Assembly (NCBI RefSeq): GCF_900100365.1
Contig: NZ_FNKU01000002.1
Coordinates: forward strand, 62,001 to 126,000
DNA: 64,000 bases
Reading direction: 5' to 3'
Source of the DNA: Pseudomonas cannabina
Lineage (GTDB): Bacteria; Pseudomonadota; Gammaproteobacteria; Pseudomonadales; Pseudomonadaceae
The notes under the pieces were generated by a model, which did not search any database, had not been told where the DNA came from, and saw nothing but the letters and a program-made list of their open reading frames with translations. A program made the position numbers and the translations under genes. Below are positions 6,001 to 58,934 of this stretch, piece after piece. Numbering within the stretch: the stretch's first letter is position 1; every line of letters starts with the position of its first letter.

Positions 6001-6075
6001 CCGCCCCAAGCCACCGACCTCGCGACGGCAAGCGCGGACGAGCTCGTTGCCCTCGCCCTGCGAACCCAGGAGTAA
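1..6075 (+). CDS. cfa6: Coronafacic acid type I polyketide synthase Cfa6 (C-terminal part, 5' end outside window)
   Basis: A modular type I polyketide synthase whose frame is open from base 1, so the start lies upstream. About 2,024 residues are visible against roughly 2,680 recalled for Cfa6; the loading region and the front of the KS are missing. Domains in order: KS (DTACSSSL near base 210), AT (GHSQGEIAAAY near 1555), DH (HAAAGVVLLP near 2475), ER (GGVGQAAIQLA near 4240), KR (GGTGTLGSLAARHL near 4790) and ACP (GIDSLMALE near 5717). The AT carries VAGH (about 1861) where malonyl-specific domains have HAFH, which fits a branched extender such as ethylmalonyl-CoA, the expected product of cfa8 downstream. 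It would perform one fully reducing extension in the cytoplasm. Five bases separate its stop from cfa7, so the genes are probably co-transcribed. The family is certain; the Cfa6 name rests on the whole COR context. Confidence 0.93.
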   Translation, partial: ERAGIDPASLHGSLTGVYAGIMGTEYGTQIQHASEDVTGYGYMGTATCVAAGRVSYCLGLQGPALAIDTACSSSLVAIHTACEALRSNDCQLALAGGVTVMPTPGVLIDFSQQRVLAPDGRCKAFSASADGVGLGEGVGMLVLERLSQAQAKGRLILGVIRGSAVNQDGASNGLTAPNGTAQQQVIRHALANAGLQPEDVDAVDAHGTGTRLGDPIEANALLATYGQRPAERPLLLGSIKSNTGHTQAAAGVASLMKMVMALRTGTLPRSLHITAPSTEVDWSTGAIELLSERRPWPNVADRPRRAGISSFGVSGTNAHLIVEEYVAPAATSACQVPETQASLWPLAAKSTEALRDVAARLHGHVLEQAHLAPDDIGYTLGVSRSGFPFRAALRGTSREALLEALHALASGTDHPCLLQGAAQVRGRKRVFIFPGQGSQWAGMGMELYAAFAVYRQTIDQVETALQPYVDWSLVAVLRGEEGAPSLERIDVVQPALFAVMVAIARLWQSLGCTPDAVIGHSQGEIAAAYIAGALKLEDAVKILAIRSQLMLAQAGTGAMATVVLPEQQAAELAARVDASLTLAVFNSPSSTVISGATNAIARLLETCKRERIVARRVAVDVAGHSPQIEVLRPQLLARFADLRPQATQIPFHSTVAGRNPAVSLDGRQLDAGYWCDNLCLPVRFADTVQALSSAGDVTFIECSPHPVLLPPLEETIGDQTSSLGSLQRNKPAVDCLVAGISQLYLEGHSLSWRALYPQGRIVELPTYPFDHKPFWLTGQGPTDVTGAGQRATQHPLLSAAVDLPEGGLLLTGTLGLGAHPWLADHAAAGVVLLPGTAYLDMLVFAAAQTDCTQLLELTLQAPLVLEQQGQIDLLLTVSRAEAEGLRQASLYARRHGDATAGWTLHANAQMVPMPPQILIPLDQAWPPTAAIPLDSAALYERLSEAGYEYGLAFRGLTAAWQDGERTYVEVSLPETLPSGTHVLHPALLDAALHPLALADEEAAAPLRLPFAFAGVSVTADRPRQLRAVLQRTQAETYSISAYDETGNSLLHIAALQLRPASRDTLRDLARVQPAHDLLRLTWSQLSARPRVQRAVTRWVRIGTAEPGLSSAPTYPSLTALGQALESSTTPPDVLVWHLPEVQGANSALATRQLCVEVIAQLQVWLAEERLADTRLLVVTRKANATVAGEAVDPAHAALWGLLHSAQNENPGRLLLLDTEGPLADPAPLQAVLASDQRQLALRRGQLLVPHLTRSGPNSVLTPPLGGGAWRLEITRAGNLDDLALQPEHQAEAPLENGQIRLAVRAAGVNFYDVVCALGLIPPQHKLGTEAAGIVTEVGTGVTDLRPGDRVLVMSEGAFGPLLVANQRAARKLPADWTFAQAAGFPVAFLTAYYSLVRLAQVRPGDKVLIHAAAGGVGQAAIQLAKHLGAEVFATAHPDKWPILKALGIAPDHIATSRDLSFAGRFGALLGEAGMDVVLNSLTGEAIDVSLALLGRGGRFIELGKTEVREPAAVALQYPGRHYHYLDRPDQDPQDTGRMLDELLGLVHDRILTPLPVTAFDLRDAVQALRWMQQGRHTGKVVLTLPRTLDPDGTVLITGGTGTLGSLAARHLVATGQARHLVLASRSGTQADGALALRQELEAAGAQVRLAACDLADPESVERLLNSLPAEHPLTAIIHTAGVLADATLPNLGPEELERVFVPKADAAWMLHERTRQLDLAAFVLYSSSAGTLGSPGQANYAAANRFLDALAQTRQRQGLPATSLAWGWWQPVTGLSSRLTAADNARIARTGFAPITPEHGHALLDTAIAAPQAFFVAAPLNPQTLRKNAQAGTLHPLFERLGGGSPGARGSEGPAKVQDLRQLLAGLDPQARTKQLQTVIATQVAAILGLDGPGQVLPEATFKESGIDSLMALELRNRLATAAGLRLAATLTYDQPTPAALAAYLNDALFPDGGAPDADTAAIDEPKVRALLASLSLSALREADLLAPMLQLALHPSGTAPPQATDLATASADELVALALRTQE

Positions 6076-6080
6076 GCGCC

Positions 6081-9000
6081 ATGACCGAGACCAGGAACAC
6101 CGACAGCGAGCGGCTGACCGAAGCCCTGCGGGCTAGTCTGATGGCCAACGAAACGCTCAAGCGGCAGAACCACGAGCTGCAGGCCGCCGCCCAAGAACCC
6201 ATCGCCATCGTCGCCATGGGCTGCCGGTTGCCCGGTGGCCTGGCTTCACCGGAGGCGCTGTGGCGCCTCGTCGAAGCGGGAGAGGCCTTGAGCAGCGCCT
6301 TGCCGAGCGACCGGGGCTGGCAGCTAGACAGCCTGTTCCCCGCAGACTCGCCGCTCCGCGAACGCGTCGCCGGCTGGCGGGGTGGTTTTCTCGACGAGGT
6401 CGCCGGCTTCGACGCCGCCTTCTTTCGCATTTCCGACCGTGAGGCCCTGGCGATGGACCCCCAGCAGCGACTCCTGCTGGAGGTCAGTTGGGAGGTGCTG
6501 GAACGGGCCGGAATCGTGCCCGCCACCCTCAAAAACAGCGCCACCGGCGTGTTTCTCGGCGCGACTCAGAACGGCTATCTCGCCGACTTGCAACGGCGTA
6601 ACCCGGCTGCCGACGGCTATCGCTTGCAGGGCGGACTCAGCAGTATCATCTCGGGACGCATCGCCTTTGTCCTCGGCCTGCGCGGCCCGGCGATGACGGT
6701 CGATACCGCCTGCTCCGCTTCCCTTACCGCCATCCATCTGGCGGTCCAGTCGCTACGCAGCCACGAGTGCTCGCTGGCGCTGGCCGGCGGGGTGACCGTC
6801 ATGGCCACGCCCGAGGTCTTCGCCGAATTCACCAGGCAGAACGGCTTGGCCGCCGATGGCTACTGCAAGGCCTTCGCCGAACAGGCCGACGGCACCTGCT
6901 TCGCCGAGGGTGCCGGCGTGCTGCTGTTGGAGCGGCTCGCCGACGCCCAGCGCGCCGGTCATCCGGTGCTGGCGGTGATCCGCGGCACCGCCATCAACCA
7001 GGACGGCGCCAGTAACGGCCTGACCGCACCGAGTGGCCCGGCCCAAGAGCAGGTGATCCAGCTGGCGCTACAGAATGCGCGGTTACGCTCGCTCGACATC
7101 GACGTGGTCGAGGCGCACGGTACCGGTACCGCACTGGGCGATCCCATCGAAGCCGGCGCGCTGATCAACACCTATGGGCGCGGACGCCCGCCGGAGCGGC
7201 CACTCTGGCTGGGCTCGCTCAAGAGCAACATCGGGCACACCCAGTTGGCGGCGGGTGTCGCCAGCGTCATCAAGATGGTGATGGCGCTGAACCAGGGCGT
7301 GCTCCCCAAGACCCTGCACGCCCAGGAGCCCTCCCGCAAGATCGATTGGTCGGAGCAGACCGTGCGCCTGCTCCACAGGGCGCGTCCTTGGCCCGAGACC
7401 GACCAGCCCCGGCGGGCCGGCGTGTCGTCGTTCGGCTTCTCCGGTACCAATGCCCACTTGATCCTCGAACAGGCGCCGCCGGCCACGCAGGTTGCCTGTC
7501 ACCCGACCGTCGCCGAGTTGGAAGGGCTGCCAGCCATCAGTTTCCCGCTGTCGGCCGCCTGTGCGGAAGGCTTGCGGGCCCAGGCGCGCCAGACCATCGC
7601 CCTGCTCGAAGACCCGGCAACCGACCTGGCCGCGCTCAATGCGTCGCTGGCCATGCAGCGCAGCGCCCTCGATCATCGCGCGGTGATTCTGGCCGCCCAG
7701 CGCGAAGACGCCCTGATGCAACTCCGCGCGCTCGCCGAAGGCCGGCATGTCCCGGGCTTGATCCAGGGCCAGCGCTCGCCAAGCGGCACGACCGCCTTTC
7801 TGTTTTCCGGCCAGGGCGCGCAATGGCCGAGCATGGGGCGTCATCTGTACCGCATCTGTCCGCCGTTCGCCGCAGCGCTGGACGAGGTCTGCGCCGCCCT
7901 CGACCCCTTGCTGACGCAGCCGCTCAAGAACGTCATGTTCGCCGACAAGGGCAGCGACCGCGCCGCGCTGCTGGATCGCACCGACTTCATCCAGCCAGCC
8001 TTGTTTGCCTTTGAGGTGTCCCTATACCGGATGCTGCGGCATTTCGGAATCGTCCCCGACGTGCTGCTGGGCCATTCCATTGGCGAAATCGCCGCGGCCC
8101 ATGTCGCTGGCGTCTTCGCGCTGGCCGATGCCGCCCGCTTCGTCGCCGTGCGTGGCCGCCTCATGCAAGCTATCACCCACGAGGGCGCGATGGTCGCCAT
8201 CGAAGCGAGCGAGCAGGACGTCAGTGCCACCTTGGCCGGACTCGAACAGAGCGTCGCCATCGCCGCGGTGAACGCGCCGACGGCCGTGGTGATCTCCGGC
8301 GATCGCAGTGCGGTCGAGCGCCTGGCCGCGGACTGGCAGCAACGGGGGCATCGCACCCAGATGTTACGGGTCAGCCATGCCTTCCATTCGCCGCACCTTG
8401 ACGGCATCCTTGCCGAACTGCGCCAAACCTTGGCAGGGCTCAGCTTCCACGCCCCCACCCTGCCCATCGTCTCGACCGTCACCGGTACGCCGCTGACCGC
8501 CGAGCAGGCACGCTCGCCCGATTACTGGGCCGAACAGGCCCGCCAACCGGTACGCTTCGCCGCTGCGCTGTGCTGGCTGCTGGAGCATCGCCTGACCACG
8601 GCCGTGGAAATCGGGCCGGATGCTGTCCTCACGGCGCTCGGCCGGACCAACGCGAGCCACCATCCCAACGGTGATACGGCGGCGCAGTGGATCGCCCCCC
8701 AGCGTCGCGACAAGGACGATCCTCGCCCGCTGTTCGCAGCGCTCGCCCAGCTGTACACCCGGGGCGCCGCGCTGGACTGGCGCCGACTGCTGCCGCCCGC
8801 CCCCACCTTGGCCTTGCCCACCTATCCTTTCCAACACCGGCACTATTGGTTGCAGCCGCGCTCCGGCGCAACCGGCCATGCGGGCAACATGCCCGGCCTG
8901 CTAGCTCTGGAGCATCCACTGCTGGCGCACGGGCTCGAACGCGCCGATGGCCAGGGCTGGGTTTTCTGGGGGCAACTGGATGGTTCCTGCCAGCCCTGGT

Positions 9001-12000
9001 TGCTGGAACATCGCGTCGGTGGGCTGGCGTACGGTGCCGGCGCCATGACCGCAGAGTGCATCCTGACAATAGGCAACCGGCTGGGTTGTCCGCTGCTCCA
9101 GGACCTGACACTGCAACGCCTGGTGCCCTTGCAGGAGCAGGGTGCGGTCGATATCCAGATTCACCTCGACGTACCCGACGCCCAGGGTGTACGTAACGTC
9201 GCGGCCTACTATCGCCCGGCGGAGCCAGATGCCACGGGTGGCTGGCAGCACTTCGCAAGTTGCCAGCTGTTGCCCGACCCTACCGAGCCACCGCTCTGGT
9301 CTGACCTGCAGACCGCCGTCTGGCCGCCAGCCCACGCCGAGCCGACGGCCTTCGCTGACCTCTATGTGCGCTTGGCCGAACAGGGCGTTGAACTGGAAGG
9401 CTCCTTCCGGCGGATCGTCCGCGCCTGGCAGAGCCCCGAAGGCATCTACGTCGAAGCGGAGCGTGCCCATAGCGAGCCAGGCCCGACTTTCACCCTGCAC
9501 CCGACGCTGTTGGACGCGGGCCTGCAATCTGGCCTGCTGGTCGAGGGTGCGGCGCCTCCCGCCGCAGCACCACGCCTGCTGTTCTCCATGAGTGGCATGC
9601 GCCTGTACCAAGCCGGTGCCACGCAGCTACGTGGCCTGCTCCAACTCAAGGCGCGGCCCACCTCGCCGACCGCGCCCCGCGACTACCGTATGCGCCTGGC
9701 GGACTACCAAGGCCGGGCCGTCGTCACCCTGGAATCCATGGTGCTGAAGTCGGCCAGTACAGGCACCCTGCCACACCGCCTCGTCGGCTACCGGGTACTG
9801 TGGCGCGAGGTATCGCCCGACCCCATGGCTGACCCGCCCGAAGCGCTCTGGCTGGGCGCTGGGGACGACCTGCCGAGCGATTGCGCCAGTGCTGCCTACC
9901 AGCACCTGGCCGACGCGATCACCACCCTGGCAACGACGCCCCCCGGCACGGCGCTCGTCCTTGTACCGCCGGTACCCCCGGCTACGCCGGCCGCGGCGAA
10001 CCGCGCCCTGCAAGATCTGGCGGCCACGCTACGCGAGTGGCTGGAAGATGAGCGGACGGCAAGGCATCCGTTGCTGGTGGCAACCCGCCGGGCGGTGGCC
10101 ACCGCCGATGACGAAGACGTGCCCAACCTGTCCCAGGCGGCGCTCTGGGGACTCGTGCGCACCGCTCAGGAGGAACACCCCGGCCGCATGCTGCTGCTGG
10201 ACCTGGATACCGCCCCCGCTACCCCGCGTGACTTCGCGCGCGCCCTGGCAGCCGCACAGGGCGACGAGCCGCAATTGGCCTGGCGCCAAGGGCGTCTGTT
10301 GGCACCGCGACTGGTCCGCTCCAGCGCCGTGGCGCCGGCAACCGAGCAACAGTCGGACGTCGCGCTCGATCCGGGGGGCATCGTGCTGATCACCGGGGGC
10401 ACCGGCACTCTGGGTCGGGCTCTCGCGCGTCATCTGGTCGCCAAGCACGGCGTACGTCACCTGCTCCTGGTGAGTCGTAGTGGTGCCGCCGCGCCCGAGG
10501 CCACCGCCTTGGTGGAAGAGCTGGCCGAACAGGGGACCGCCACCACGGTCGCCGCCTGCGATGTCGCCGACCCGCAGGCCCTTGCGCAGTTGTTGGACGG
10601 GCTGCCCGCACGGCATCCACTGACCGCCGTCTTCCATGTCGCTGGCGTCGTCGATCCGGCGCCCCTGTTGCAACTCACCCCCGCGCAGCTCGAAGCGGTG
10701 GTGAGGCCCAAACTGGACGCGGCCTGGCAACTCCACCGGCAGACCCGCCAGCGAAAGCTGGCTGCCTTCGTTCTCTATTCCTCGGCTGCCGGCCTGCTGC
10801 CCCAGCCGGGCCAGAGCCACTATGCCGCTGCCAACACCTTCCTCGATGCCCTCGCCCACTATCGTCGCCACTTGGGCTTGCCAGCCGTTGCCCTGGCCTG
10901 GGGCCTGTGGGCCGAGCGCTCGGCCATGGGTGAACGAATGGCCGCCGCGGGTATCCAGGAACTGCTCGACCGAGGTCAGTTGCCCATCGCCCTGGAGGAT
11001 GGCCTGAGCCAAGTGGATATGGCGCTGACCGGGTCCCTGCCGCCCCTCGCGATTCCTGCACGCCTGGACCTGCCTGCACTCCGCCGCCATGGACCCCAGG
11101 CGCTGCTGCGCGAATTGCTCGCCGAAGGCAGCGGGCAGACGGCAAGCCAAGGCTCCGAAGCCTTGGCGAAACTAGCTCCCACCGAGCGGCGGACACGCCT
11201 GCTGGCGGTGATTGCCCAAGGGGTCGGTGAGGTGCTTGAGCATCCCGATCCAGCGGCGATACCTGGAGATACCGAGTTCCTTGTCCTGGGTTTCGATTCC
11301 CTCACGGCCGTCGAGTTGTGCAGTTGGCTGGCGGCCACCACCGGCATCCGCTTGCCGTCCACGGCCGTGTTCGACCATCCGACCCTCAGCGCCTTGGCCG
11401 ACCACCTGAGCGCCTGCCTGGACCAACCGGAGCGCGCCCCAGCGCCAACCATCGCGACAGTGGGCATGCTTTTCGAAGAATTGCGCGAGGCTATGCGGCA
11501 GGGGCGTCTGGCACAGGGGCTGGAGCGATTGGCGCAATTCGCGGCCAAACGTCCTACGTTTGGCCCGGATGCCGCCGAAGGGCACGCGCCCGCGCCCAGC
11601 TGGTCGCGCCAAGAGCGTGACCGGCCACTGCTCATCTGCCTGAACTCCTTCCTGCCCGCAAGGGCCAATCTCACCTATCAGCGCTTGAGCCGCGAACTCA
11701 AAGGCCACTATGACATGGCCACCTTGCCCCTGCCTGGCTACGATAACGGGCCGTTGCCGGCCTCCGCCGAAGCTGTTGCAGTGGCGCTCGCGCACGCCGT
11801 CGAAGCCTGCGCTGCCGGTCGCCCCTTCACGCTGCTCGGCTTTTCCACCGGCGGACTGGTCGCCTATGCAGTCGCCGAGCTCCTGCAACAGCGCGGCATC
11901 CACCCCGCGGCCCTCTGCCTGATCGACACCTACCCGCCGGCCGCCATGCGTTCGGCGGTCCTGAAGGAAGTCCTGAGCGATTGGTTGGAAAGCCGCAGCG

Positions 12001-32914: not shown

Positions 32915-33196
32915 ATGGCGTCAGAGACCAAAAAACGTAAACGGGCGAGCCGGGCAAAAGCCAAGGCAAAGCAGACCCGTCTCCAACGCGCCGGGCATAC
33001 CACCTTCGTTCCCGATACCGACTTTTTCTTCGATATCGATCCTTTGGGTGATGTCGATCTTTGTAGTTGCTGCCAGACAACGTATCTGAACGACATGTTT
33101 CCCGACGCTTCTTGCGTAAGCGTTTCGATGAGAGAAGGGCCAGGCGGATTCGCCATCACCGCCGTCATTCACCACGATGAGGAGCCGCCCTGCTGA
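32915..33196 (+). CDS. Unknown 93-residue passenger protein of the IS801-like element
   Basis: I do not recognise this protein. It begins with a very basic stretch (KKRKRASRAKAKAKQTRLQ, residues 5-23) that could contact nucleic acid. An acidic hydrophobic segment follows (FFFDIDPLGDVDL), then the Cys pair CSCC and an isolated C-terminal Cys. Its stop lies 20 bases inside the transposase frame, so the two are probably translated together. The same gene, apparently unchanged, sits upstream of the transposase in all four long copies and is missing from the 1.5-kb IS801 at 31311. IS91 itself has a small overlapping upstream ORF (orf121) that modulates transposition; a similar role is possible but not shown. 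Confidence 0.68.
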   Translation: MASETKKRKRASRAKAKAKQTRLQRAGHTTFVPDTDFFFDIDPLGDVDLCSCCQTTYLNDMFPDASCVSVSMREGPGGFAITAVIHHDEEPPC

Positions 33197-34406
33197 CGTG
33201 GCCTCTGCACCGCCTGCTTACAAACCTCGACCGCTCAAAAACCTCTTCACGGCCAACGGCTGCTGGGCAGATTTGCTGGAGGCCGGCGGTCTGCGCCAAA
33301 TCGAAGTGGAGTCGATCAGCAAAATGCTCGCCTGCGGCACCTCGATACTGGGCGTCAAACACTACACCTGCGGCAACGACAGCTGCCCGCACGTCAAATA
33401 CCTGTGCAACACCTGCCATTGCCGGGCCTGTCCTTCCTGCGGCAAAAAGGCCACCGACCAGTGGATCGCCGTGCAAAACAACCGTCTGCCCGACTGCCCC
33501 TGGCAGCATCTGGTGTTCACGCTGCCCGACACGCTGTGGTCCCTGTTCTTCTACAACCGCTGGCTGCTTGATGCGCTGTTTCGTCTGGCGGCCGATAACC
33601 TGATCTACACCGCCAAGCGGCGCGGTTTGCGCGTCGGGATTTTCGGGGCGCTGCACACCTATGGACGGCGGCTCAACTGGCATCCCCACGTCCACCTGTC
33701 GGTGACCGCGGGCGGCCTGGATGAGCAGGGCGTCTGGAAAAATCTGTCGTTCCACAAAGAGGCCCTGCGGCGGCGCTGGATGTGGCTGGTGCGCGATTAC
33801 CTGCTGGGACAGCCGCTTTCGCAACTGACGATGCCGCCGCCGCTGGCCCACATCCACTGTGAAAGCGACTGGCACCGTCTGATACTGACCGCTGGCGGCC
33901 AGCACTGGCACATCCACTTGTCGAAGAAGACGGAAAACGGCCGAAAGACCGTCAATTACCTGGGCCGCTACCTGAAAAAACCGCCGATCTCGGGCAGTCG
34001 TCTGGCGCATTACACCAACGGGGCCACGTTGAGCTTCACCTACCTGGATCACCGCACACAGACCTATCAGCAGGAAACGCTGAGCCAGGCCGACATGCTG
34101 CGCCGGGTGGTGCAGCACATCCCGGAAAAGCATTTCCGGATGATCCGGTATTTTGGTTTTCTGGCCAATCGGGTGTGTGGGAAATACCTGCCGAAGGTGT
34201 ATGAAGCATTGAAGATGGCGACGCCAGGACCGACACCGAAGCTGTATTTTGTGCAGATGGCCAAAGCCTTTCTAAACGTCGATCCGTTCCGTTGCGTGCT
34301 GTGTGGCGCGCGGATGGTATACACGGCGGCAATCAGCGGGCTGACGGTACAGGGACTGGTCCTCAACGCTCAGGCGATCGCGCAGATGAGGTACGTGAAG
34401 CCCTGA
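33177..34406 (+). CDS. IS801-like HUH transposase, copy 1
   Basis: 409 residues with the same architecture as IS801: zinc block CGNDSCPHVKYLCNTC, HUH motif NWHPHVHLSVTAGG and tyrosines in NYLGRYLKKPPIS. It starts inside the 93-residue passenger gene. It is apparently identical to the copies at 38046 and 57705, which implies recent amplification. Confidence 0.9.
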   Translation: MRSRPADVASAPPAYKPRPLKNLFTANGCWADLLEAGGLRQIEVESISKMLACGTSILGVKHYTCGNDSCPHVKYLCNTCHCRACPSCGKKATDQWIAVQNNRLPDCPWQHLVFTLPDTLWSLFFYNRWLLDALFRLAADNLIYTAKRRGLRVGIFGALHTYGRRLNWHPHVHLSVTAGGLDEQGVWKNLSFHKEALRRRWMWLVRDYLLGQPLSQLTMPPPLAHIHCESDWHRLILTAGGQHWHIHLSKKTENGRKTVNYLGRYLKKPPISGSRLAHYTNGATLSFTYLDHRTQTYQQETLSQADMLRRVVQHIPEKHFRMIRYFGFLANRVCGKYLPKVYEALKMATPGPTPKLYFVQMAKAFLNVDPFRCVLCGARMVYTAAISGLTVQGLVLNAQAIAQMRYVKP

Positions 34407-37378: not shown

Positions 37379-37557
37379 TGTAGCGGCTTGCAATCGAAAA
37401 CAGCCGTGCTCGCAATCAGCGCAATTTTCGGCTCAGACTAACTGCGACTGACGAAGCCGTCTGGCTCAGATTAATTGCGAGCGAGCTTGCATTCAGCCAC
37501 ATCGACTTGCATTCCATCGTTTCCGGCTCACATTAGCTGCAACTGAACCAGCACCGG
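37379..37557 (+). repeat. Recombination-unit end E1 (diverged)
   Basis: It starts TGTAGCGGCTTGCAATCG and carries seven motifs in the order A-A-B-B-A-A-B, where A is like CTTGCAATC and B like GGCTCAGATTAATTGC. The same order is found in the ends at 39729, 51650, 52283 and 55073, though the sequence has diverged widely. It abuts CATAGG, which follows GTTCATG, i.e. the outer part of an IS801 origin end. It is cut at 37558 by MITE-A. Confidence 0.75.
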
Positions 37558-37560
37558 TTA

Positions 37561-37661
37561 GGGAAGGTCTGAAAAAGCCTTTTCTTCAAAAGTCGAAGCC
37601 AGTAAATACAGGCGCTCCAGCCCGGTTCCTCTCCAAAAAAATGGGCTTTTTCAGAGGATAC
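37561..37661. repeat. MITE-A copy 2
   Basis: The 101-bp element described at 25292, again flanked by TTA on both sides. Confidence 0.88.
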
Positions 37662-37783: not shown

Positions 37784-38065
37784 ATGGCGTCAGAGACCAA
37801 AAAACGTAAACGGGCGAGCCGGGCAAAAGCCAAGGCAAAGCAGACCCGTCTCCAACGCGCCGGGCATACCACCTTCGTTCCCGATACCGACTTTTTCTTC
37901 GATATCGATCCTTTGGGTGATGTCGATCTTTGTAGTTGCTGCCAGACAACGTATCTGAACGACATGTTTCCCGACGCTTCTTGCGTAAGCGTTTCGATGA
38001 GAGAAGGGCCAGGCGGATTCGCCATCACCGCCGTCATTCACCACGATGAGGAGCCGCCCTGCTGA
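37784..38065 (+). CDS. 93-residue passenger protein, copy 2
   Basis: Same protein as at 32915: basic N-terminus, CSCC motif, stop overlapping the transposase frame by 20 bases. Function unknown. Confidence 0.65.
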   Translation: MASETKKRKRASRAKAKAKQTRLQRAGHTTFVPDTDFFFDIDPLGDVDLCSCCQTTYLNDMFPDASCVSVSMREGPGGFAITAVIHHDEEPPC

Positions 38066-39275
38066 CGTGGCCTCTGCACCGCCTGCTTACAAACCTCGAC
38101 CGCTCAAAAACCTCTTCACGGCCAACGGCTGCTGGGCAGATTTGCTGGAGGCCGGCGGTCTGCGCCAAATCGAAGTGGAGTCGATCAGCAAAATGCTCGC
38201 CTGCGGCACCTCGATACTGGGCGTCAAACACTACACCTGCGGCAACGACAGCTGCCCGCACGTCAAATACCTGTGCAACACCTGCCATTGCCGGGCCTGT
38301 CCTTCCTGCGGCAAAAAGGCCACCGACCAGTGGATCGCCGTGCAAAACAACCGTCTGCCCGACTGCCCCTGGCAGCATCTGGTGTTCACGCTGCCCGACA
38401 CGCTGTGGTCCCTGTTCTTCTACAACCGCTGGCTGCTTGATGCGCTGTTTCGTCTGGCGGCCGATAACCTGATCTACACCGCCAAGCGGCGCGGTTTGCG
38501 CGTCGGGATTTTCGGGGCGCTGCACACCTATGGACGGCGGCTCAACTGGCATCCCCACGTCCACCTGTCGGTGACCGCGGGCGGCCTGGATGAGCAGGGC
38601 GTCTGGAAAAATCTGTCGTTCCACAAAGAGGCCCTGCGGCGGCGCTGGATGTGGCTGGTGCGCGATTACCTGCTGGGACAGCCGCTTTCGCAACTGACGA
38701 TGCCGCCGCCGCTGGCCCACATCCACTGTGAAAGCGACTGGCACCGTCTGATACTGACCGCTGGCGGCCAGCACTGGCACATCCACTTGTCGAAGAAGAC
38801 GGAAAACGGCCGAAAGACCGTCAATTACCTGGGCCGCTACCTGAAAAAACCGCCGATCTCGGGCAGTCGTCTGGCGCATTACACCAACGGGGCCACGTTG
38901 AGCTTCACCTACCTGGATCACCGCACACAGACCTATCAGCAGGAAACGCTGAGCCAGGCCGACATGCTGCGCCGGGTGGTGCAGCACATCCCGGAAAAGC
39001 ATTTCCGGATGATCCGGTATTTTGGTTTTCTGGCCAATCGGGTGTGTGGGAAATACCTGCCGAAGGTGTATGAAGCATTGAAGATGGCGACGCCAGGACC
39101 GACACCGAAGCTGTATTTTGTGCAGATGGCCAAAGCCTTTCTAAACGTCGATCCGTTCCGTTGCGTGCTGTGTGGCGCGCGGATGGTATACACGGCGGCA
39201 ATCAGCGGGCTGACGGTACAGGGACTGGTCCTCAACGCTCAGGCGATCGCGCAGATGAGGTACGTGAAGCCCTGA
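38046..39275 (+). CDS. IS801-like HUH transposase, copy 2
   Basis: A 409-residue HUH transposase, same as at 33177, with intact zinc, HUH and tyrosine motifs. Confidence 0.9.
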   Translation: MRSRPADVASAPPAYKPRPLKNLFTANGCWADLLEAGGLRQIEVESISKMLACGTSILGVKHYTCGNDSCPHVKYLCNTCHCRACPSCGKKATDQWIAVQNNRLPDCPWQHLVFTLPDTLWSLFFYNRWLLDALFRLAADNLIYTAKRRGLRVGIFGALHTYGRRLNWHPHVHLSVTAGGLDEQGVWKNLSFHKEALRRRWMWLVRDYLLGQPLSQLTMPPPLAHIHCESDWHRLILTAGGQHWHIHLSKKTENGRKTVNYLGRYLKKPPISGSRLAHYTNGATLSFTYLDHRTQTYQQETLSQADMLRRVVQHIPEKHFRMIRYFGFLANRVCGKYLPKVYEALKMATPGPTPKLYFVQMAKAFLNVDPFRCVLCGARMVYTAAISGLTVQGLVLNAQAIAQMRYVKP

Positions 39276-39455
39276 CAGGGGGAAGGTGCGTCCGCACCTA
39301 GGCTTCGCGGTGAAATAACCTGCATTAACGCTGATTTATAGGGATTTTCACTGCATAAGTAACGCATCAGCGTCTTCCTACACATCGCTATGAAGGCATG
39401 ACGCCTCCTTCCAAGCGTCAGCTTGATGCATAGGCATTTTGAAATTCCTATGCAT

Positions 39456-39729
39456 GAACGTACTGTATCAAAAATTAAAAACCGCCCTATTGAGACGCAA
39501 AAAGCGTCTCGGCCATACGTCTCACAAGGGTGTGCTCAAATGAGACATAAGCGGCGAGCGATCACTCGCAAATAATTCCGGTTCATGACAATCGATTGCA
39601 GGTCGAACCAGATGAACGCAGGTTCATTCGCAAATAATCCCGGTTTGCTGGCTCGGATAGATGCAATCAATCCTGGTCGAAAAACGCGATGATTGCAGGT
39701 CCGGGCCATTTCGATTGCAGGCCGCTACA
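39456..39729 (-). repeat. Recombination-unit arm E2
   Basis: 274 bp that are the exact reverse complement of 51650-51923, the left arm of the intact unit. The outer end (read on the reverse strand) is TGTAGCGGCCTGCAATCG and abuts CCTATG at 39730-39735. The inner end begins GAACGTACTG right against the IS801-like element. It contains the A-A-B-B-A-A-B motif array and a GAGACGC/GCGTCTC hairpin followed by a T-rich run, but no gene. Confidence 0.85.
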
Positions 39730-45873: not shown

Positions 45874-45947
45874 CTATCTCATGCCTCGATACCATCAGTT
45901 CTGAGAGTGAGATTTTGCAAGGTGACCCACAAATTAAGGAGAAAGAC

Positions 45948-47948
45948 ATGTCACAGAACGAGATTACACTGCCCCCTATCATCGTTACGCCTGATCCACC
46001 ACTGCCTCAGCCTCCAGGTCCTATTCCAGGAGGTGGTGTGATTGCCAAGCCGCTGCCATGGGACGGTAAAGTGCCTGCAGACGCTGAAATTGATAAGTTC
46101 TTTAGTCAGCAAGGAATTAAAGGTGAGCAGTACACGATTTCTGTGGTGGCAACGGTAGCCACTACTCAACGAAACATTGAGCAAGCCTTTACGACCTATT
46201 TGCCGCAATTACCGGCAGACATTGACGCAGAAATTGCTGCTGCAGTCGGGCCCAATCCTTTATCCGCACTTGAAAAGGCCAAAACTGAAAAAAGTGTGGT
46301 GGATAACCTGATCACGCAGAACACTGCAGAACTGGCAAATGCCAACGCAGCAGCCAGCGCTTTTTTTGGCAGAAATGTGTTGGCAGTAGAAATTAAAAAA
46401 AGCGCAGTAGATTTTGTAAATATCTTTCAATCAAGACAAGATCGTGGCACCCCGCTCGAGGTTTTCAAAAGTTGGGAAGCGTCAGCTACCGCCGCCTATG
46501 CTGCGAAAATTATTGAGGAGAAGATCCGAATACTCACGGAAAAGTCAGCTGCACTTTTACAGACCGTGGCTACGGCGCAGGCTGAAGAGGATGCTCGCAT
46601 TGCTGCAGAGGCAGAAGCTAAACGCTTGGCTGATGAGGCAGCGGCTGCAGAGGCCAAACGCTTGGCTGATGAGGCAGCGGCTGCAGAGGCCAAACGCTTG
46701 GCTGATGAAGCAGCGGCTGCAGAAGCCAAACGCTTGGCTGATGAAGCAGCGGCTGCGGAAGCCAAACGCTTAGCTGATGAAGCAGCAGCTGCGGAAGCCA
46801 AACGCATTGCCGAAGAGCAGGCTCGTATTGCTGCAGAGGCTGTTCGGACAGCTAATACATTCCGTGCGCCTGGCCCGCTTTCGGCTACCGCTCCCGTTAT
46901 CATGACGGCTGCGGGAACGATTGCCGTTATCGAAGCGGCGACAGTTACCTTGCAAGCAGCTATCCGCTCCGCTGTTGCCGCGCTAACTAATTTAGCCGCT
47001 GGTACGGCTTCGGGGCTTTTGGTCGGCGTGTCAGCTTTGGTCTATTCACCCAAACTGGCTAACGGAGAGTTACCTGAGCGTTATGCTTTCAACACACCAT
47101 TGTCGGATCTGACGCCTGAGCTTGGTAAAGACTTGCCAGCGATTGCGGCATCTGGTGGTACTGTTGATTTGCCATTTCGACTTAGCTCTAAAACAGCAGC
47201 AGATGGGCAGTCTGAAGTTTTTGTTGTCAAGACCGATGCTTTGACAGCATCGTCGAAAGTAAGAGTGGTATCAGCTGTTCTTGATGTAGAGCAGAACACC
47301 TATAGCGTGACGACGGGAGATGTACCACCCAGGATATTGACTTGGACACCGATTGTCAGTCCTGGGAATAGCTCAACAACATCGCCTGCTGAACAGCCAG
47401 CTCCACCCGTGTATACGGGGGCTGCAGTAACGCCCGTTGAAGGGAGGATAGATGCATTCCCGGCTGTTTCAGAAGCCAGTTTTGATGATTTCATTACGGT
47501 TTTTCCGGCAGACTCTGGTTTACCACCCATCTATACGATGTTCCGGGATCGGCGAGAAGATCCGGGCGTTGCAACAGGTGTCGGTCAACCTGTATCGGGG
47601 ATCTGGCTAGGGGCTGCATCGCAAGGTGAAGGGGCTCCCATTCCATCGCAGATTGCTGATCAGCTTCGCGGCAAGGAGTTCAAGAACTTCAGAGACTTTC
47701 GGGAGAACTTCTGGAAAACTGTAGTCAATGATCCAGAGCTTGCCAAGCAATTTATTACCCCAAATAGAGATCGCATGATCACTGGTAAAGCTGCTAAGTC
47801 TAGAAAAACTGATACAGTGGGTAAACGTTCATCTTTTGAGATTCATCACATTGATGAGGTGGCAAAAAATGGAGATGTTTATAATGTTGACAATATGCGA
47901 GTATTGACGCCTAAGCGTCATATAGAAATCCATAAAGGAGTAAAATAA
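45948..47948 (+). CDS. S-type pyocin/colicin-like bacteriocin with HNH DNase domain
   Basis: 666 residues from ATG 45948 (AAGGAG upstream). The N-terminus is proline-rich (LPPIIVTPDPPLPQPPGPIP), followed by a helical part and a coiled coil built from six copies of AEAKRLADEAAA. Then comes a Pyocin_S-type translocation region (from about residue 320) and a C-terminal nuclease with GIWLGAASQGEGAPIPSQIA, then FEIHHIDEVAKNGDVYNVDN and TPKRHIEIHKG, the H-N-H metal finger of colicin E9-type DNases. It would kill related bacteria by cutting DNA after receptor-mediated entry. The immunity gene overlaps its stop. Confidence 0.93.
   Translation: MSQNEITLPPIIVTPDPPLPQPPGPIPGGGVIAKPLPWDGKVPADAEIDKFFSQQGIKGEQYTISVVATVATTQRNIEQAFTTYLPQLPADIDAEIAAAVGPNPLSALEKAKTEKSVVDNLITQNTAELANANAAASAFFGRNVLAVEIKKSAVDFVNIFQSRQDRGTPLEVFKSWEASATAAYAAKIIEEKIRILTEKSAALLQTVATAQAEEDARIAAEAEAKRLADEAAAAEAKRLADEAAAAEAKRLADEAAAAEAKRLADEAAAAEAKRLADEAAAAEAKRIAEEQARIAAEAVRTANTFRAPGPLSATAPVIMTAAGTIAVIEAATVTLQAAIRSAVAALTNLAAGTASGLLVGVSALVYSPKLANGELPERYAFNTPLSDLTPELGKDLPAIAASGGTVDLPFRLSSKTAADGQSEVFVVKTDALTASSKVRVVSAVLDVEQNTYSVTTGDVPPRILTWTPIVSPGNSSTTSPAEQPAPPVYTGAAVTPVEGRIDAFPAVSEASFDDFITVFPADSGLPPIYTMFRDRREDPGVATGVGQPVSGIWLGAASQGEGAPIPSQIADQLRGKEFKNFRDFRENFWKTVVNDPELAKQFITPNRDRMITGKAAKSRKTDTVGKRSSFEIHHIDEVAKNGDVYNVDNMRVLTPKRHIEIHKGVK
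46611..46826 (+). repeat. 36-bp tandem repeats inside the bacteriocin gene
   Basis: Five full and one partial copies of a 36-bp unit encoding AEAKRLADEAAA. They build the coiled-coil stalk. The number could vary by slippage. Confidence 0.93.
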
Positions 47949-51622: not shown

Positions 51623-51649
51623 ATGCATAGGAATTTCAAAATGCCTATG
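51623..51649 (-). mobile_element. IS801 origin-end fragment
   Basis: ATGCATAGGAATTTC through CAAAATGCCTATG, the terminal hairpin of the IS801-like element in reverse orientation, cut after 27 bp by the recombination unit starting at 51650. Confidence 0.8.
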
Positions 51650-52283
51650 TGTAGCGGCCTGCAATCGAAATGGCCCGGACCTGCAATCATCGCGTTTTTC
51701 GACCAGGATTGATTGCATCTATCCGAGCCAGCAAACCGGGATTATTTGCGAATGAACCTGCGTTCATCTGGTTCGACCTGCAATCGATTGTCATGAACCG
51801 GAATTATTTGCGAGTGATCGCTCGCCGCTTATGTCTCATTTGAGCACACCCTTGTGAGACGTATGGCCGAGACGCTTTTTGCGTCTCAATAGGGCGGTTT
51901 TTAATTTTTGATACAGTACGTTCACAAATTCTAGAGTCTAAAGAGACAAACTTGACGATGGCACCTTACGGAGGTAAGAGGTTGGAGCTTCCAACAGCAG
52001 CGCTACCGGGCTACCGGACTGAATCGTGTGATCGCAGTACAGGGTGCGGAGCAATGAAACAGAAAGTGCACTAAGCCGAGTGCATCCGCGTAAACCCCGC
52101 TAAAATCATCGGTTTTCAGTCGCATTTAATCCTGGTCGGCCGCTCTCGATTGCAGGTCGAAGTGGGTGGATGCAGGTTCGTTTGCAGTCAATGCTGGTTC
52201 GCGGTGCCGGATAGACGCAATTAATCCCGGTCGAAAAACGCGATGATTGCAGGTCCGGGCCATTTCGATTGCAGGTCGTTACA
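51650..52283. mobile_element. Intact 634-bp non-coding recombination unit
   Basis: It is bounded by TGTAGCGGCCTGCAATCG on the left and TGTAACGACCTGCAATCG on the reverse strand at the right. The terminal 75 or so bases of the two ends are near-identical inverted repeats. Each end then holds seven short motifs in the order A-A-B-B-A-A-B (A about ACCTGCAATC, B about CCGGGATTAATTGC). The middle has hairpins such as GAGACGCTTTTTGCGTCTC but no gene. The left flank is CCTATG within an IS801 hairpin, the right flank GGTACTG inside an effector gene. Iterated motifs of this kind suggest binding sites for a tyrosine recombinase supplied elsewhere. Separate halves of the unit are at 39456-39729 and 55073-55432. 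Confidence 0.78.
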
Positions 52284-52677
52284 GGTACTGCGTATTTTCC
52301 GTAGCGCCGTCTTCAATCCAATCGAAGCCATCGCTCTGAACGCGTTGGCGCTTGGCGGGCGTGTCAACGTTCCCGGGCTATTTGATTCCGACAATGCCAA
52401 GCATGCACGCGTGGTACAAACCATCCTTGCGCGGGCCAGCCAGCACATGGAAGCTGGAGACCGTGACATTTCCGCAGAGGAGCTACATCAAATGCTGGCT
52501 CCCCGGAGCGAGTTCCTGCGCCATGTGGGATCTGCGATTGTCAACGGCATGAATGCCAGCTTTGAGGCAATTCCCGCCCTGGTTCGGAAGCTTGGATACG
52601 GTGAGGCTCCATTGGCCGAACGTATTCCGTATCAAGACCTGGCTGTGCCCGACACGTCGCGGCAGCCCGCACCCTGA
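52284..52677 (+). pseudogene. Probable hopD1 (XopB-like) effector, 3' fragment
   Basis: About 125 in-frame residues ending AERIPYQDLAVPDTSRQPAP, with no start of its own because the unit replaced the 5' part. From memory this matches the C-terminus of HopD1, which in tomato strain DC3000 lies beside hopQ1, also the neighbour here. The identity is moderately sure; the truncation is certain. It converges on hopQ1. Confidence 0.6.
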
Positions 52678-54196: not shown

Positions 54197-54323
54197 ATCA
54201 CCAGGGTCAAGTGCAGCTCGCTCCGGGTTAGAACTGGGCAGCCTGCGGCTGCAAATTGTGGGATTTTGAAATCGGTTATCATAGCCGAAATCGAGTCGAT
54301 CCCTCCTCAGCACAGGCTTACAC

Positions 54324-54605
54324 ATGGCGTCAGAGACCAAAAAACGTAAACGGGCGAGCCGGGCAAAAGCCAAGGCAAAGCAGACCCGTCTCCAACGCGC
54401 CGGGCATACCACCTTCGTTCCCGATACCGACTTTTTCTTCGATATCGATCCTTTGGGTGATGTCGATCTTTGTAGTTGCTGCCAGACAACGTATCTGAAC
54501 GACATGTTTCCCGACGCTTCTTGCGTAAGCGTTTCGATGAGAGAAGGGCCAGGCGGATTCGCCATCACCGCCGTCATTCACCACGATGAGGAGCCGCCCT
54601 GCTGA
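54324..54605 (+). CDS. 93-residue passenger protein, copy 3
   Basis: Complete copy of the protein at 32915. In this truncated element it is separated from a working transposase. Confidence 0.62.
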   Translation: MASETKKRKRASRAKAKAKQTRLQRAGHTTFVPDTDFFFDIDPLGDVDLCSCCQTTYLNDMFPDASCVSVSMREGPGGFAITAVIHHDEEPPC

Positions 54606-55072
54606 CGTGGCCTCTGCACCGCCTGCTTACAAACCTCGACCGCTCAAAAACCTCTTCACGGCCAACGGCTGCTGGGCAGATTTGCTGGAGGCCGGCGGTC
54701 TGCGCCAAATCGAAGTGGAGTCGATCAGCAAAATGCTCGCCTGCGGCACCTCGATACTGGGCGTCAAACACTACACCTGCGGCAACGACAGCTGCCCGCA
54801 CGTCAAATACCTGTGCAACACCTGCCATTGCCGGGCCTGTCCTTCCTGCGGCAAAAAGGCCACCGACCAGTGGATCGCCGTGCAAAACAACCGTCTGCCC
54901 GACTGCCCCTGGCAGCATCTGGTGTTCACGCTGCCCGACACGCTGTGGTCCCTGTTCTTCTACAACCGCTGGCTGCTTGATGCGCTGTTTCGTCTGGCGG
55001 CCGATAACCTGATCTACACCGCCAAGCGGCGCGGTTTGCGCGTCGGGATTTTCGGGGCGCTGCACACCTATG
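54586..55072 (+). pseudogene. IS801-like transposase, N-terminal fragment
   Basis: The first 162 residues, including the zinc block CGNDSCPHVKYLCNTC but not the HUH or tyrosine motifs. It ends in the unit arm at GALHTY. Confidence 0.9.
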
Positions 55073-55432
55073 TGTAACGACCTGCAATCGAAATGGCCCG
55101 GACCTGCAATCATCGCGTTTTTCGACCGGGATTAATTGCGTCTATCCGGCACCGCGAACCAGCATTGACTGCAAACGAACCTGCATCCACCCACTTCGAC
55201 CTGCAATCGAGAGCGGCCGACCAGGATTAAATGCGACTGAAAACCGATGATTTTAGCGGGGTTTACGCGGATGCACTCGGCTTAGTGCACTTTCTGTTTC
55301 ATTGCTCCGCACCCTGTACTGCGATCACACGATTCAGTCCGGTAGCCCGGTAGCGCTGCTGTTGGAAGCTCCAACCTCTTACCTCCGTAAGGTGCCATCG
55401 TCAAGTTTGTCTCTTTAGACTCTAGAATTTGT
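55073..55432 (+). repeat. Recombination-unit arm E5
   Basis: 360 bp that are the exact reverse complement of 51924-52283, the right arm of the intact unit. It starts TGTAACGACCTGCAATCG directly after CCTATG. It ends at AATTTGT, the point opposite the GAAC where the other half (39456) meets an IS801-like element. Confidence 0.85.
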
Positions 55433-55596
55433 CAAGGCCATACCGCGCGGGTCTGCCAGCGGGTCCGCCGGGCAGGGTGCATCCAGCGCCGACAGCGCTT
55501 TGAAAGGTCCGGGTTCGCCGTCGACAATGACATGCGCCAGTGAGGGCTGGTGCTCGATAATCCCGGCGGCCATCTCGCGAAAATCGAAGTCCCTGG
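55433..55596 (-). pseudogene. Unknown fragment, perhaps of an AMP-dependent ligase
   Basis: On the reverse strand one frame reads RDFDFREMAAGIIEHQPSLA, HVIVDGEPGPFKALSALDAP and CPADPLADPRGMAL. This resembles the middle of AMP-dependent acyl-CoA synthetases such as 2,3-dihydroxybenzoate ligases. It is only about 55 residues, bounded by the unit arm and by IS3 sequence. The assignment is weak. Confidence 0.35.
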
Positions 55597-56433: not shown

Positions 56434-56487
56434 AGAATCCATCTTGTCTGATCAGAAAGTTTGAAAAAAATTGGAAATCTTCCATTA

Positions 56488-56588
56488 GGGAAGGTCTGAA
56501 AAAGCCTTTTCTTCAAAAGTCGAAGCCAGTAAATACAGGCGCTCCAGCCCGGTTCCTCTCCAAAAAAATGGGCTTTTTCAGAGGATAC
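56488..56588. repeat. MITE-A copy 3
   Basis: The element described at 25292, preceded by TTA and followed by ATTA. Confidence 0.87.
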
Positions 56589-57442: not shown

Positions 57443-57724
57443 ATGGCGTCAGAGACCAAAAAACGTAAACGGGCGAGCCGGGCAAAAGCCAAGGCAAAGC
57501 AGACCCGTCTCCAACGCGCCGGGCATACCACCTTCGTTCCCGATACCGACTTTTTCTTCGATATCGATCCTTTGGGTGATGTCGATCTTTGTAGTTGCTG
57601 CCAGACAACGTATCTGAACGACATGTTTCCCGACGCTTCTTGCGTAAGCGTTTCGATGAGAGAAGGGCCAGGCGGATTCGCCATCACCGCCGTCATTCAC
57701 CACGATGAGGAGCCGCCCTGCTGA
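57443..57724 (+). CDS. 93-residue passenger protein, copy 4
   Basis: Same protein as at 32915, overlapping the transposase start by 20 bases. Confidence 0.65.
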   Translation: MASETKKRKRASRAKAKAKQTRLQRAGHTTFVPDTDFFFDIDPLGDVDLCSCCQTTYLNDMFPDASCVSVSMREGPGGFAITAVIHHDEEPPC

Positions 57725-58934
57725 CGTGGCCTCTGCACCGCCTGCTTACAAACCTCGACCGCTCAAAAACCTCTTCACGGCCAACGGCTGCTGGGCAGAT
57801 TTGCTGGAGGCCGGCGGTCTGCGCCAAATCGAAGTGGAGTCGATCAGCAAAATGCTCGCCTGCGGCACCTCGATACTGGGCGTCAAACACTACACCTGCG
57901 GCAACGACAGCTGCCCGCACGTCAAATACCTGTGCAACACCTGCCATTGCCGGGCCTGTCCTTCCTGCGGCAAAAAGGCCACCGACCAGTGGATCGCCGT
58001 GCAAAACAACCGTCTGCCCGACTGCCCCTGGCAGCATCTGGTGTTCACGCTGCCCGACACGCTGTGGTCCCTGTTCTTCTACAACCGCTGGCTGCTTGAT
58101 GCGCTGTTTCGTCTGGCGGCCGATAACCTGATCTACACCGCCAAGCGGCGCGGTTTGCGCGTCGGGATTTTCGGGGCGCTGCACACCTATGGACGGCGGC
58201 TCAACTGGCATCCCCACGTCCACCTGTCGGTGACCGCGGGCGGCCTGGATGAGCAGGGCGTCTGGAAAAATCTGTCGTTCCACAAAGAGGCCCTGCGGCG
58301 GCGCTGGATGTGGCTGGTGCGCGATTACCTGCTGGGACAGCCGCTTTCGCAACTGACGATGCCGCCGCCGCTGGCCCACATCCACTGTGAAAGCGACTGG
58401 CACCGTCTGATACTGACCGCTGGCGGCCAGCACTGGCACATCCACTTGTCGAAGAAGACGGAAAACGGCCGAAAGACCGTCAATTACCTGGGCCGCTACC
58501 TGAAAAAACCGCCGATCTCGGGCAGTCGTCTGGCGCATTACACCAACGGGGCCACGTTGAGCTTCACCTACCTGGATCACCGCACACAGACCTATCAGCA
58601 GGAAACGCTGAGCCAGGCCGACATGCTGCGCCGGGTGGTGCAGCACATCCCGGAAAAGCATTTCCGGATGATCCGGTATTTTGGTTTTCTGGCCAATCGG
58701 GTGTGTGGGAAATACCTGCCGAAGGTGTATGAAGCATTGAAGATGGCGACGCCAGGACCGACACCGAAGCTGTATTTTGTGCAGATGGCCAAAGCCTTTC
58801 TAAACGTCGATCCGTTCCGTTGCGTGCTGTGTGGCGCGCGGATGGTATACACGGCGGCAATCAGCGGGCTGACGGTACAGGGACTGGTCCTCAACGCTCA
58901 GGCGATCGCGCAGATGAGGTACGTGAAGCCCTGA
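57705..58934 (+). CDS. IS801-like HUH transposase, copy 4
   Basis: A 409-residue transposase, apparently identical to those at 33177 and 38046, all motifs intact. Confidence 0.9.
   Translation: MRSRPADVASAPPAYKPRPLKNLFTANGCWADLLEAGGLRQIEVESISKMLACGTSILGVKHYTCGNDSCPHVKYLCNTCHCRACPSCGKKATDQWIAVQNNRLPDCPWQHLVFTLPDTLWSLFFYNRWLLDALFRLAADNLIYTAKRRGLRVGIFGALHTYGRRLNWHPHVHLSVTAGGLDEQGVWKNLSFHKEALRRRWMWLVRDYLLGQPLSQLTMPPPLAHIHCESDWHRLILTAGGQHWHIHLSKKTENGRKTVNYLGRYLKKPPISGSRLAHYTNGATLSFTYLDHRTQTYQQETLSQADMLRRVVQHIPEKHFRMIRYFGFLANRVCGKYLPKVYEALKMATPGPTPKLYFVQMAKAFLNVDPFRCVLCGARMVYTAAISGLTVQGLVLNAQAIAQMRYVKP

Follow-up and report, generated by a model that had tools for sequence, protein, structure and literature searches.

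A 634-bp MITE-like unit of Pseudomonas cannabina, its gene-bearing relatives and their seven-site ends

The 64,000 nt of P. cannabina DNA analysed here (contig NZ_FNKU01000002.1, positions 62,001 to 126,000; hereafter the window) carry a 634-bp unit which very probably arose by internal deletion, as a MITE-like derivative of a transposon with the genes for resolvase, DDE transposase and AAA+ ATPase in that order, and which has both ends complete and would be moved in trans. The parent transposon is widespread and apparently unnamed. We further consider it reasonably probable that these three genes (the trio) mark an undescribed, broad transposon family with a resolvase, an IS481/IstA-like transposase, a MuB/TnsC-like ATPase and a strict NNTANN 6-bp target, in which each end holds seven bipartite sites with half-site spacings of 0 or 9 bp and these sites evolve in lock-step with transposase residue 123 (together with residue 127), S or T reading RRCC and P or A reading RRCT. 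The derivation gives an owner to a repeat scattered over plasmids and chromosomes of the P. syringae group, some of them with effector genes (hopW on pPMA4326B, in a 6.5-kb relative). The coordinates of the features are given in Table 1.

Table 1. Features of the unit, its partial copies and the lone end E1 in the window
Feature	Position	Strand	Basis or detail
634-bp non-autonomous (MITE-like) transposable unit	51650..52283	+	11 full-length same-genome copies, 97-100% identical; constant boundaries
Left end (L)	51650..51814	+	A 51656-51669, A 51678-51691, B 51701-51719, B 51734-51752, A 51755-51768, A 51775-51788, B 51796-51814
Right end (R)	52119..52283	-	A 52264-52277, A 52242-52255, B 52214-52232, B 52181-52199, A 52165-52178, A 52145-52158, B 52119-52137
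28-bp GTCTC...GAGAC dyad (unit 184-211), probable res subsite	51833..51860	.	Between left end and resolvase start; dyad seen directly
Resolvase gene start codon and first five codons, then truncation	51958..51972	+	Alignment to resolvase starts of L022 and L061
Tn3-family transposase 3' coding scrap (unit 335-382)	51984-52031	+	81% match to L183 inside an ORF with PF01526 DDE_Tnp_Tn3 (E 6.5e-72)
Tn3-terminus-like piece (unit 396-448)	52045-52097	+	81% match to L170/L173; probable Tn3 terminus
Left target hexamer CCTATG	51644..51649	.	Within IS801 terminal fragment 51623-51649
Right target hexamer GGTACT	52284..52289	.	Unlike left hexamer
Partial copy, left 275 nt, cut at IS801 end	39455..39729	-	Identical to 51650-51924 (275/275)
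Partial copy, right 363 nt, inside IS801 copy	55073..55435	-	1 mismatch to the 52283 end in 363 nt
E1, diverged lone end, CT specificity class (all seven sites RRCT)	37379..37543	+	Downstream interrupted by MITEPsy1 and IS801

An earlier note on this DNA, made from the letters alone, had proposed a gene-free mobile unit here. The coordinates proved exact and the same boundaries recur among the copies; the longest stop-free stretch is 76 codons, though the first five codons of a resolvase gene are present. Like other MITEs, the unit is short, has no transposase gene and ends in inverted repeats (115 of 138 bases identical between the 138-bp termini), and it is flanked by target duplications at some insertions, with one unoccupied site known for a close relative of it (below).

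The P. cannabina assembly holds the full unit on five contigs, and all 22 hexamers flanking the 11 copies fit NNTANN. Five copies have an exact 6-bp target duplication (TSD; CCTACG, ACTATC, CCTATG, AATACC and CCTAAG) and six, including that of the window, have no matching hexamers. Two of these six lie in opposite orientation on contig C7 and have swapped flanks reciprocally, the pattern expected from an inversion between the two; this accounts for one reciprocal pair. The flanks of the other four, the window copy among them, are unpaired, and recombination between copies is here assumed as the cause. With its unmatched flanks, the window copy is by itself no proof of transposition.

Beyond this assembly, the unit was matched by 164 records of the plasmid collection, in 37 of them over at least 80% of its length in one place. 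Ten of the 37 were taken; the copies were 611-644 bp long, with 20/20 flanks fitting NNTANN, an exact TSD in three and no matching hexamers in seven. A further copy of 611 bp in a relative (L160) has CTTACC on both sides. The records of strain ES4326 combine an intact trio (L061, pPMA4326B) with mini copies on pPma4326F (L145) and pPMA4326D (L150, exact TSD TCTACG). For the 612-bp relative L153, the flanks joined by one GATATC matched intact Y-family polymerase genes ungapped: 66 plasmid records were hit, of which 60 covered 80% or more of the query. L153's own record came first among the hits, split into two pieces, and H182, for example, aligned over 300/300 nt in one piece (93.3%). The joined flanks of L150 gave no empty site in the plasmid collection. 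The comparison of empty and filled sites proposed in the earlier note has one clean case. The same note had named two outcomes that would speak for part of a larger ordinary duplication, namely no occurrence beyond this plasmid or boundaries that vary from copy to copy; the unit was found far beyond the plasmid and its boundaries are constant.

The surroundings of the unit raise another reading. The 409-aa ORFs around it, which we take to be IS801 (IS91 family), have a homologous ORF in a relative that is annotated as IS91 family transposase, and several copies of the unit lie in IS801 termini. In the window, both partial copies break off at IS801 boundaries, and a 27-nt stretch at 39429-39455 recurs at 51623-51649. 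A passive repeat, spread by homologous recombination and one-ended transposition of IS801 and no transposable unit in itself, would fit these observations and also the six own-genome copies without TSD. It is contradicted for the unit by the exact TSDs and constant tips at many unrelated sites and by the empty site in the Y-family polymerase gene, and we regard it as very improbable there. It accounts, though, for the two partial copies (39455 and 55073), which look like products of IS801 activity.

The earlier note had read each end as two motifs, A and B, in the order A-A-B-B-A-A-B. This order was found at the same offsets in all five ends of the window (37379, 39729, 51650, 52283 and 55073). 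These are not five independent cases, however, since they comprise three distinct sequences (L, R and E1). E1 had been singled out as strongly diverged with its order kept, and that description holds: 91/138 positions are identical to L. Its diverged look with the order intact arises because E1 is of the CT class at all seven sites; the closest like end is at 5208 of L064. On both strands of the 64-kb window the A pattern occurs 19 times, 18 of them within the five ends, and the looser B pattern 26 times, 12 of them within the five ends.

Larger relatives enclosing recombinase genes, for which the earlier note had suggested a search, were found in L022 (P. coronafaciens pPg2708, 6001-11043; 5,043 bp) and L061 (pPMA4326B, 399-6947; 6,549 bp). 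Both enclose the genes of the trio: serine resolvase, DDE transposase and AAA+ ATPase. The outer hexamers are unmatched in each element, and all four fit NNTANN. By annotation, the L061 transposon also encloses a HopW-family type III effector gene. The left 323 bp of the unit are common to L022 and L061 at 87-90%, with a terminus of the same kind at the other end (52115-52283 aligns to the right end of L022 at 83%). The homology ends five codons into the resolvase gene, where Tn3 scraps follow and then the right end. From this fusion of a resolvase start with Tn3 scraps we infer, as the origin of the unit, an internal deletion within an element that carried a Tn3 fragment. The GTCTC/GAGAC dyad is a plausible resolvase (res) subsite, judged by its position, which in L022 and L061 is just ahead of the resolvase gene.

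The view that the element is non-autonomous and moved in trans is supported by the lack of a transposase gene, the multiple copies, the 6-bp target duplications and the gene-bearing relatives with the same ends. The ends held in common with L022 and L061 suggest that a related transposase would mobilize it. The sole transposase homologue found in the P. cannabina assembly is chromosomal and 97% identical, with an in-frame stop and a shortened ATPase frame. No ends were detected near it, and no intact helper set was found in that assembly. As the only helper copy found there is broken, the unit may be stranded in its own genome at present.

The earlier note had attributed the iterated motifs to arm and core sites of a tyrosine recombinase, and this is not supported. 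A tyrosine-recombinase element with site-specific integration would agree with iterated short end motifs and a strict local target rule. The conserved set of the trio relatives studied, though, consists of serine resolvase, DDE transposase and AAA+ ATPase, and includes no tyrosine recombinase. Many different target hexamers are used, and insertion duplicates the 6-bp NNTANN, as a DDE transposase does. We give this reading practically no chance.

TIMEs consist of transposon ends and a res region with no transposase; they differ from the unit in that their ends and transposase are of the Tn3 family. A Tn3-derived miniature element, of TIME or MITEPsy2-like type and moved by a Tn3-family transposase, is suggested by unit positions 335-448, which match Tn3-transposase coding sequence and a Tn3-terminus-like piece. 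These scraps are internal, however, and the outer ends group with the IS481-like trio. The tips are TGTARCG, beginning TGTA and not GGGG as listed for MITEPsy2 in Table 3 of PMC3189936, and the duplication is 6 bp against the 5 bp given for ISPsy30/MITEPsy2 in PMC3191145. A Tn3 origin is thus extremely unlikely, and the internal-deletion derivative of the trio transposon remains our reading of the unit.

A scan of genome contigs for the transposase gave at least 80 loci (90 confirmed). The matches listed came from Pseudomonas, Massilia, Nitrosomonas, Klebsiella, Geobacteraceae, cyanobacteria and others. With the trio transposase as tblastn query, 829 of 72,556 plasmid records matched, weak and partial matches included; 391 of the 829 are Salmonella plasmids, many of which have apparently carried the trio for a long time, with its genes annotated only singly. 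The trio of these plasmid records appears to make up a family of transposons whose ends are exact and whose target rule is simple. The gene order was resolvase, transposase, ATPase in most loci. The distance from the ATPase stop to the right tip was 175-276 bp in 36 of the 45 tabulated loci (three loci were set by hand to 0, none being computed there, and the 177 of L062 was entered by hand); among the others it was 396 bp (n=1) or 870 bp (n=6). In the L107 element of 3,713 bp, the resolvase is preceded by 322 bp and the ATPase followed by 217 bp.

The target rule was nearly without exception: of the 107 ends flanked by 6 nt or more, 106 abut NNTANN, and L085, the one end breaking it, has a tip that is itself unaligned. 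Exact 6-bp TSDs flanked 13 of 36 end pairs around the trio, from Pseudomonas to cyanobacteria, where ~0.14 would be expected with only NNTANN fixed; the other 23 have no matching hexamers. The flanks of L116 and L143 are identical, and both counts (107 and 36) hold some duplicates.

Some loci vary in content. Transposase and ATPase remain paired, with a resolvase that is swapped between lineages (L065-L091; identity to the L022 resolvase ~42% or 75-93%). On the 26.9-kb P. aeruginosa plasmid pMKPA34-2 (L062), a Tn7-like set annotated TnsA-TnsB-TnsC-TnsD-TnsE adjoins the right end of the trio. In P. syringae pv. cilantro (L064), the ATPase frame is apparently split in two (tblastn).

The proteins of the relatives were compared with profiles and structures. 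The serine resolvase matches PF00239 (E 9.3e-38) and the 323-aa AAA ATPase matches AAA_22 (E 4.2e-13). The 545-aa transposase stays below cut-off with NF033577 (IS481; E 1.9e-22, 80.1 bits, cut-off 224), rve (E 5.9e-5) and NF033546 (IS21; 32.4 bits, cut-off 160); PF22483 (Mu-transpos_C_2) gave a weak match in 14 of 26 transposase members (best E 0.0016). Its AlphaFold model, of low overall confidence (mean pLDDT 62.4, pTM 0.36), has two N-terminal helical domains, an RNase-H-like core, a beta domain and a helical tail. The best Foldseek matches were IstA (8b4h, 8q4d) and ShCAST TnsB (7svw: E 5.2e-10, TMq 0.22, model pLDDT 62). The ATPase model (pLDDT 85.9) matches MuB (8xvc, TMt 0.64) and TnsC (7plh, TMt 0.65), with Cdc6/ORC proteins ranking above them by E-value.

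Ends with several sites also occur in Tn7, Mu and IS21 elements, in IS21 as multiple repeats, and so the earlier statement that no described element has this architecture needs qualification for the ends. It stands for the transposon in that no published name for the trio family was found in open-licence PMC full texts; a registered name may exist. Like IS21 (IstA/IstB), the trio has a transposase gene followed by an ATPase gene, and its best structural match is IstA. It differs from IS21 in its NF033546 score (32.4 against 160), the resolvase, the fixed 6-bp NNTANN duplication and ATPase matches to another family (AAA_22, ExeA-type label). The NF033577 match, the TGT tips and the 6-bp duplication with central TA are shared with IS481, from which the trio is set apart by the score (80.1 bits against 224), a C-terminal part longer by ~200 residues, ATPase and resolvase partners that look obligate, and seven-site ends of ~165 bp. 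For TnRErm46/ISRe46 of the IS481 family, PMC6794481 gives the target NCTAGN and ends of the form TGTTGCGG...; the targets here are also 6 bp but follow NNTANN, and many have no CTAG (AATACC, ACTATC, GATATC). The unit is a MITE of a family that neighbours IS481 and IS21 and fails the tested cut-offs of both.

Tn5053/Tn402 and Tn552 combine a DDE transposase, an AAA+ ATPase and a serine resolvase with res, and have multi-site ends with TGT tips; the duplication of Tn5053-type transposons is 5 bp. Tn5053 resolvase and res targeting are described in PMC11406308. The trio works alike in gene set, multi-site ends and TGT tips, and the unit could accordingly be a deletion derivative of a Tn5053/Tn402-type (TniA-TniB-TniQ-TniR) transposon and belong to no separate family. 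The trio has no TniQ, however, and the 3,713-bp L107 element has no room for one. Its target is the 6-bp NNTANN and not 5 bp, and there is no clear sequence similarity to one TniA-type protein, a TniB-neighboured DDE protein (one pair compared; BLASTP E 0.029 over 30 aligned residues). Such an origin seems improbable, and a separate trio family is preferred.

The PmaES4326 gene table (PMC8895235) has an IS481 transposase and a recombinase beside a RulB fragment and names no transposon there, and PMC9679502 describes as an insertion 18.4 kb of Tolypothrix DNA that code for a recombinase, a DDE integrase and an ExeA protein. MITEPsy1 (100 nt, GGAAGGTCTG ends), MITEPsy2 (228 nt, GGGG ends) and MITEPsy3 (ISThsp9-like ends) of P. 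syringae, as given in PMC3189936 and PMC3191145, are, like the unit, short gene-free mobile units of the same plasmids, and MITEPsy1 lies in this window. Passages and Table 1 text of the 1448A re-annotation list no 0.6-kb element, though p1448A-A carries a 644-bp copy (L148).

Across 104 distinct ends of the family, A and B are built of the same two half-sites, RRC[CT] and TGCRA, 0 or 9 bp apart: the 0-bp spacing occurred 141 times and the 9-bp spacing 242 times, where 20 mononucleotide shuffles gave 1.6 and 1.8 on average. The same seven-site array runs through all 104 aligned ends, with site 5 of B type in cyanobacterial and some other elements. By eye, Pseudomonas and betaproteobacterial ends read A-A-B-B-A-A-B and the cyanobacterial fifth site is B-type.

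The fourth base of the RRC[CT] half-site changes in concert. Of the 95 ends in which every one of the seven sites was scored, 84 had at least six sites alike; column shuffles, which ignore kinship, gave 32. Pairwise phi between sites was 0.66-0.86 in these 95 ends. On a tree of 59 transposases (two mixed rows unlabelled, alignment columns 118-140 left out) the CC/CT label required seven changes, with at least six of them forced by supported branches; on a 45-row tree it required six, at least five of them forced.

Ranking all alignment columns over the 45 rows brought out residue 123, and the link was then checked on loci outside this set. Column 123 is S/T in 34/34 CC rows and P/A in 11/11 CT rows; column 127 is R in 11/11 CT rows and also elsewhere. 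With a coarse regular expression, 30 hold-out cases agreed with the residue-123 rule and three disagreed, two of these being L137 and one L085. Site-anchored scoring gave CT and mixed for L137. Over 92 cognate ends from 68 loci, a count that pools the 45-row discovery set with the hold-out loci and from which L085 is absent (tip unaligned), it gave 67 CC ends with S/T, 20 CT ends with P/A/Q, five mixed and none opposed. L085, with S123, R127 and a CT end, is an exception to the rule. One of the mixed, the right end of L156 (Lichenicola), has G at all seven fourth positions with S123/R127, a third state; S123 alone thus does not fix the fourth base.

Residues 122-131 form a helix in the model (pLDDT near 80), which places residue 123 in a predicted recognition helix. 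The transposases of L022 and L064 are alike at 498 of 545 residues, with 123 and 127 among the 47 that differ. The end nearest to the L064 transposase is a CT left end 4.8 kb upstream, with which it likely pairs; its right end lies beyond the contig. If the lock-step reading is true, the family is a natural experiment on how the DNA specificity of a multi-site transposase can shift at all 14 sites together, the mixed ends L086, L125 and L140 being intermediates and L022/L064 a ready-made specificity pair. A specificity change in a 14-site transposase is hard to study, and here the ends, the helix residue, repeated switches and mixed intermediates are all visible.

By analogy, the trio may work like IS21, Tn7, Mu or Tn5053-type transposition. 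The helper transposase and ATPase would assemble on the seven sites of each complete unit end, and the unit would be inserted at NNTANN with duplication of the 6 bp. The transposase would bind the predicted A and B sites through its second helix-turn-helix at the prefix RRC[C/T/G] and through another domain at the TGCRA-type half-site; B could be the half-site pair of A opened by 9 bp, about one helical turn. The ATPase may select or deliver the target, as MuB, TnsC and IstB do. Transposition would be replicative, with cointegrates resolved at a res site kept in the unit.

Other repeats were seen in the window. IS801-like (IS91-type) copies lie at 33177-34406, 38046-39275, 57705-58934 and 54228-55072, the last interrupted by the right-type end at 55073. 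A 104-nt repeat has two identical copies (37558-37661 and 56485-56588) with the terminal repeats published for MITEPsy1 (PMC3189936), and the first lies just inside the E1 end. Six 36-bp-spaced tandem repeats were present at 46566-46852 within a 677-aa ORF (45915-47948).
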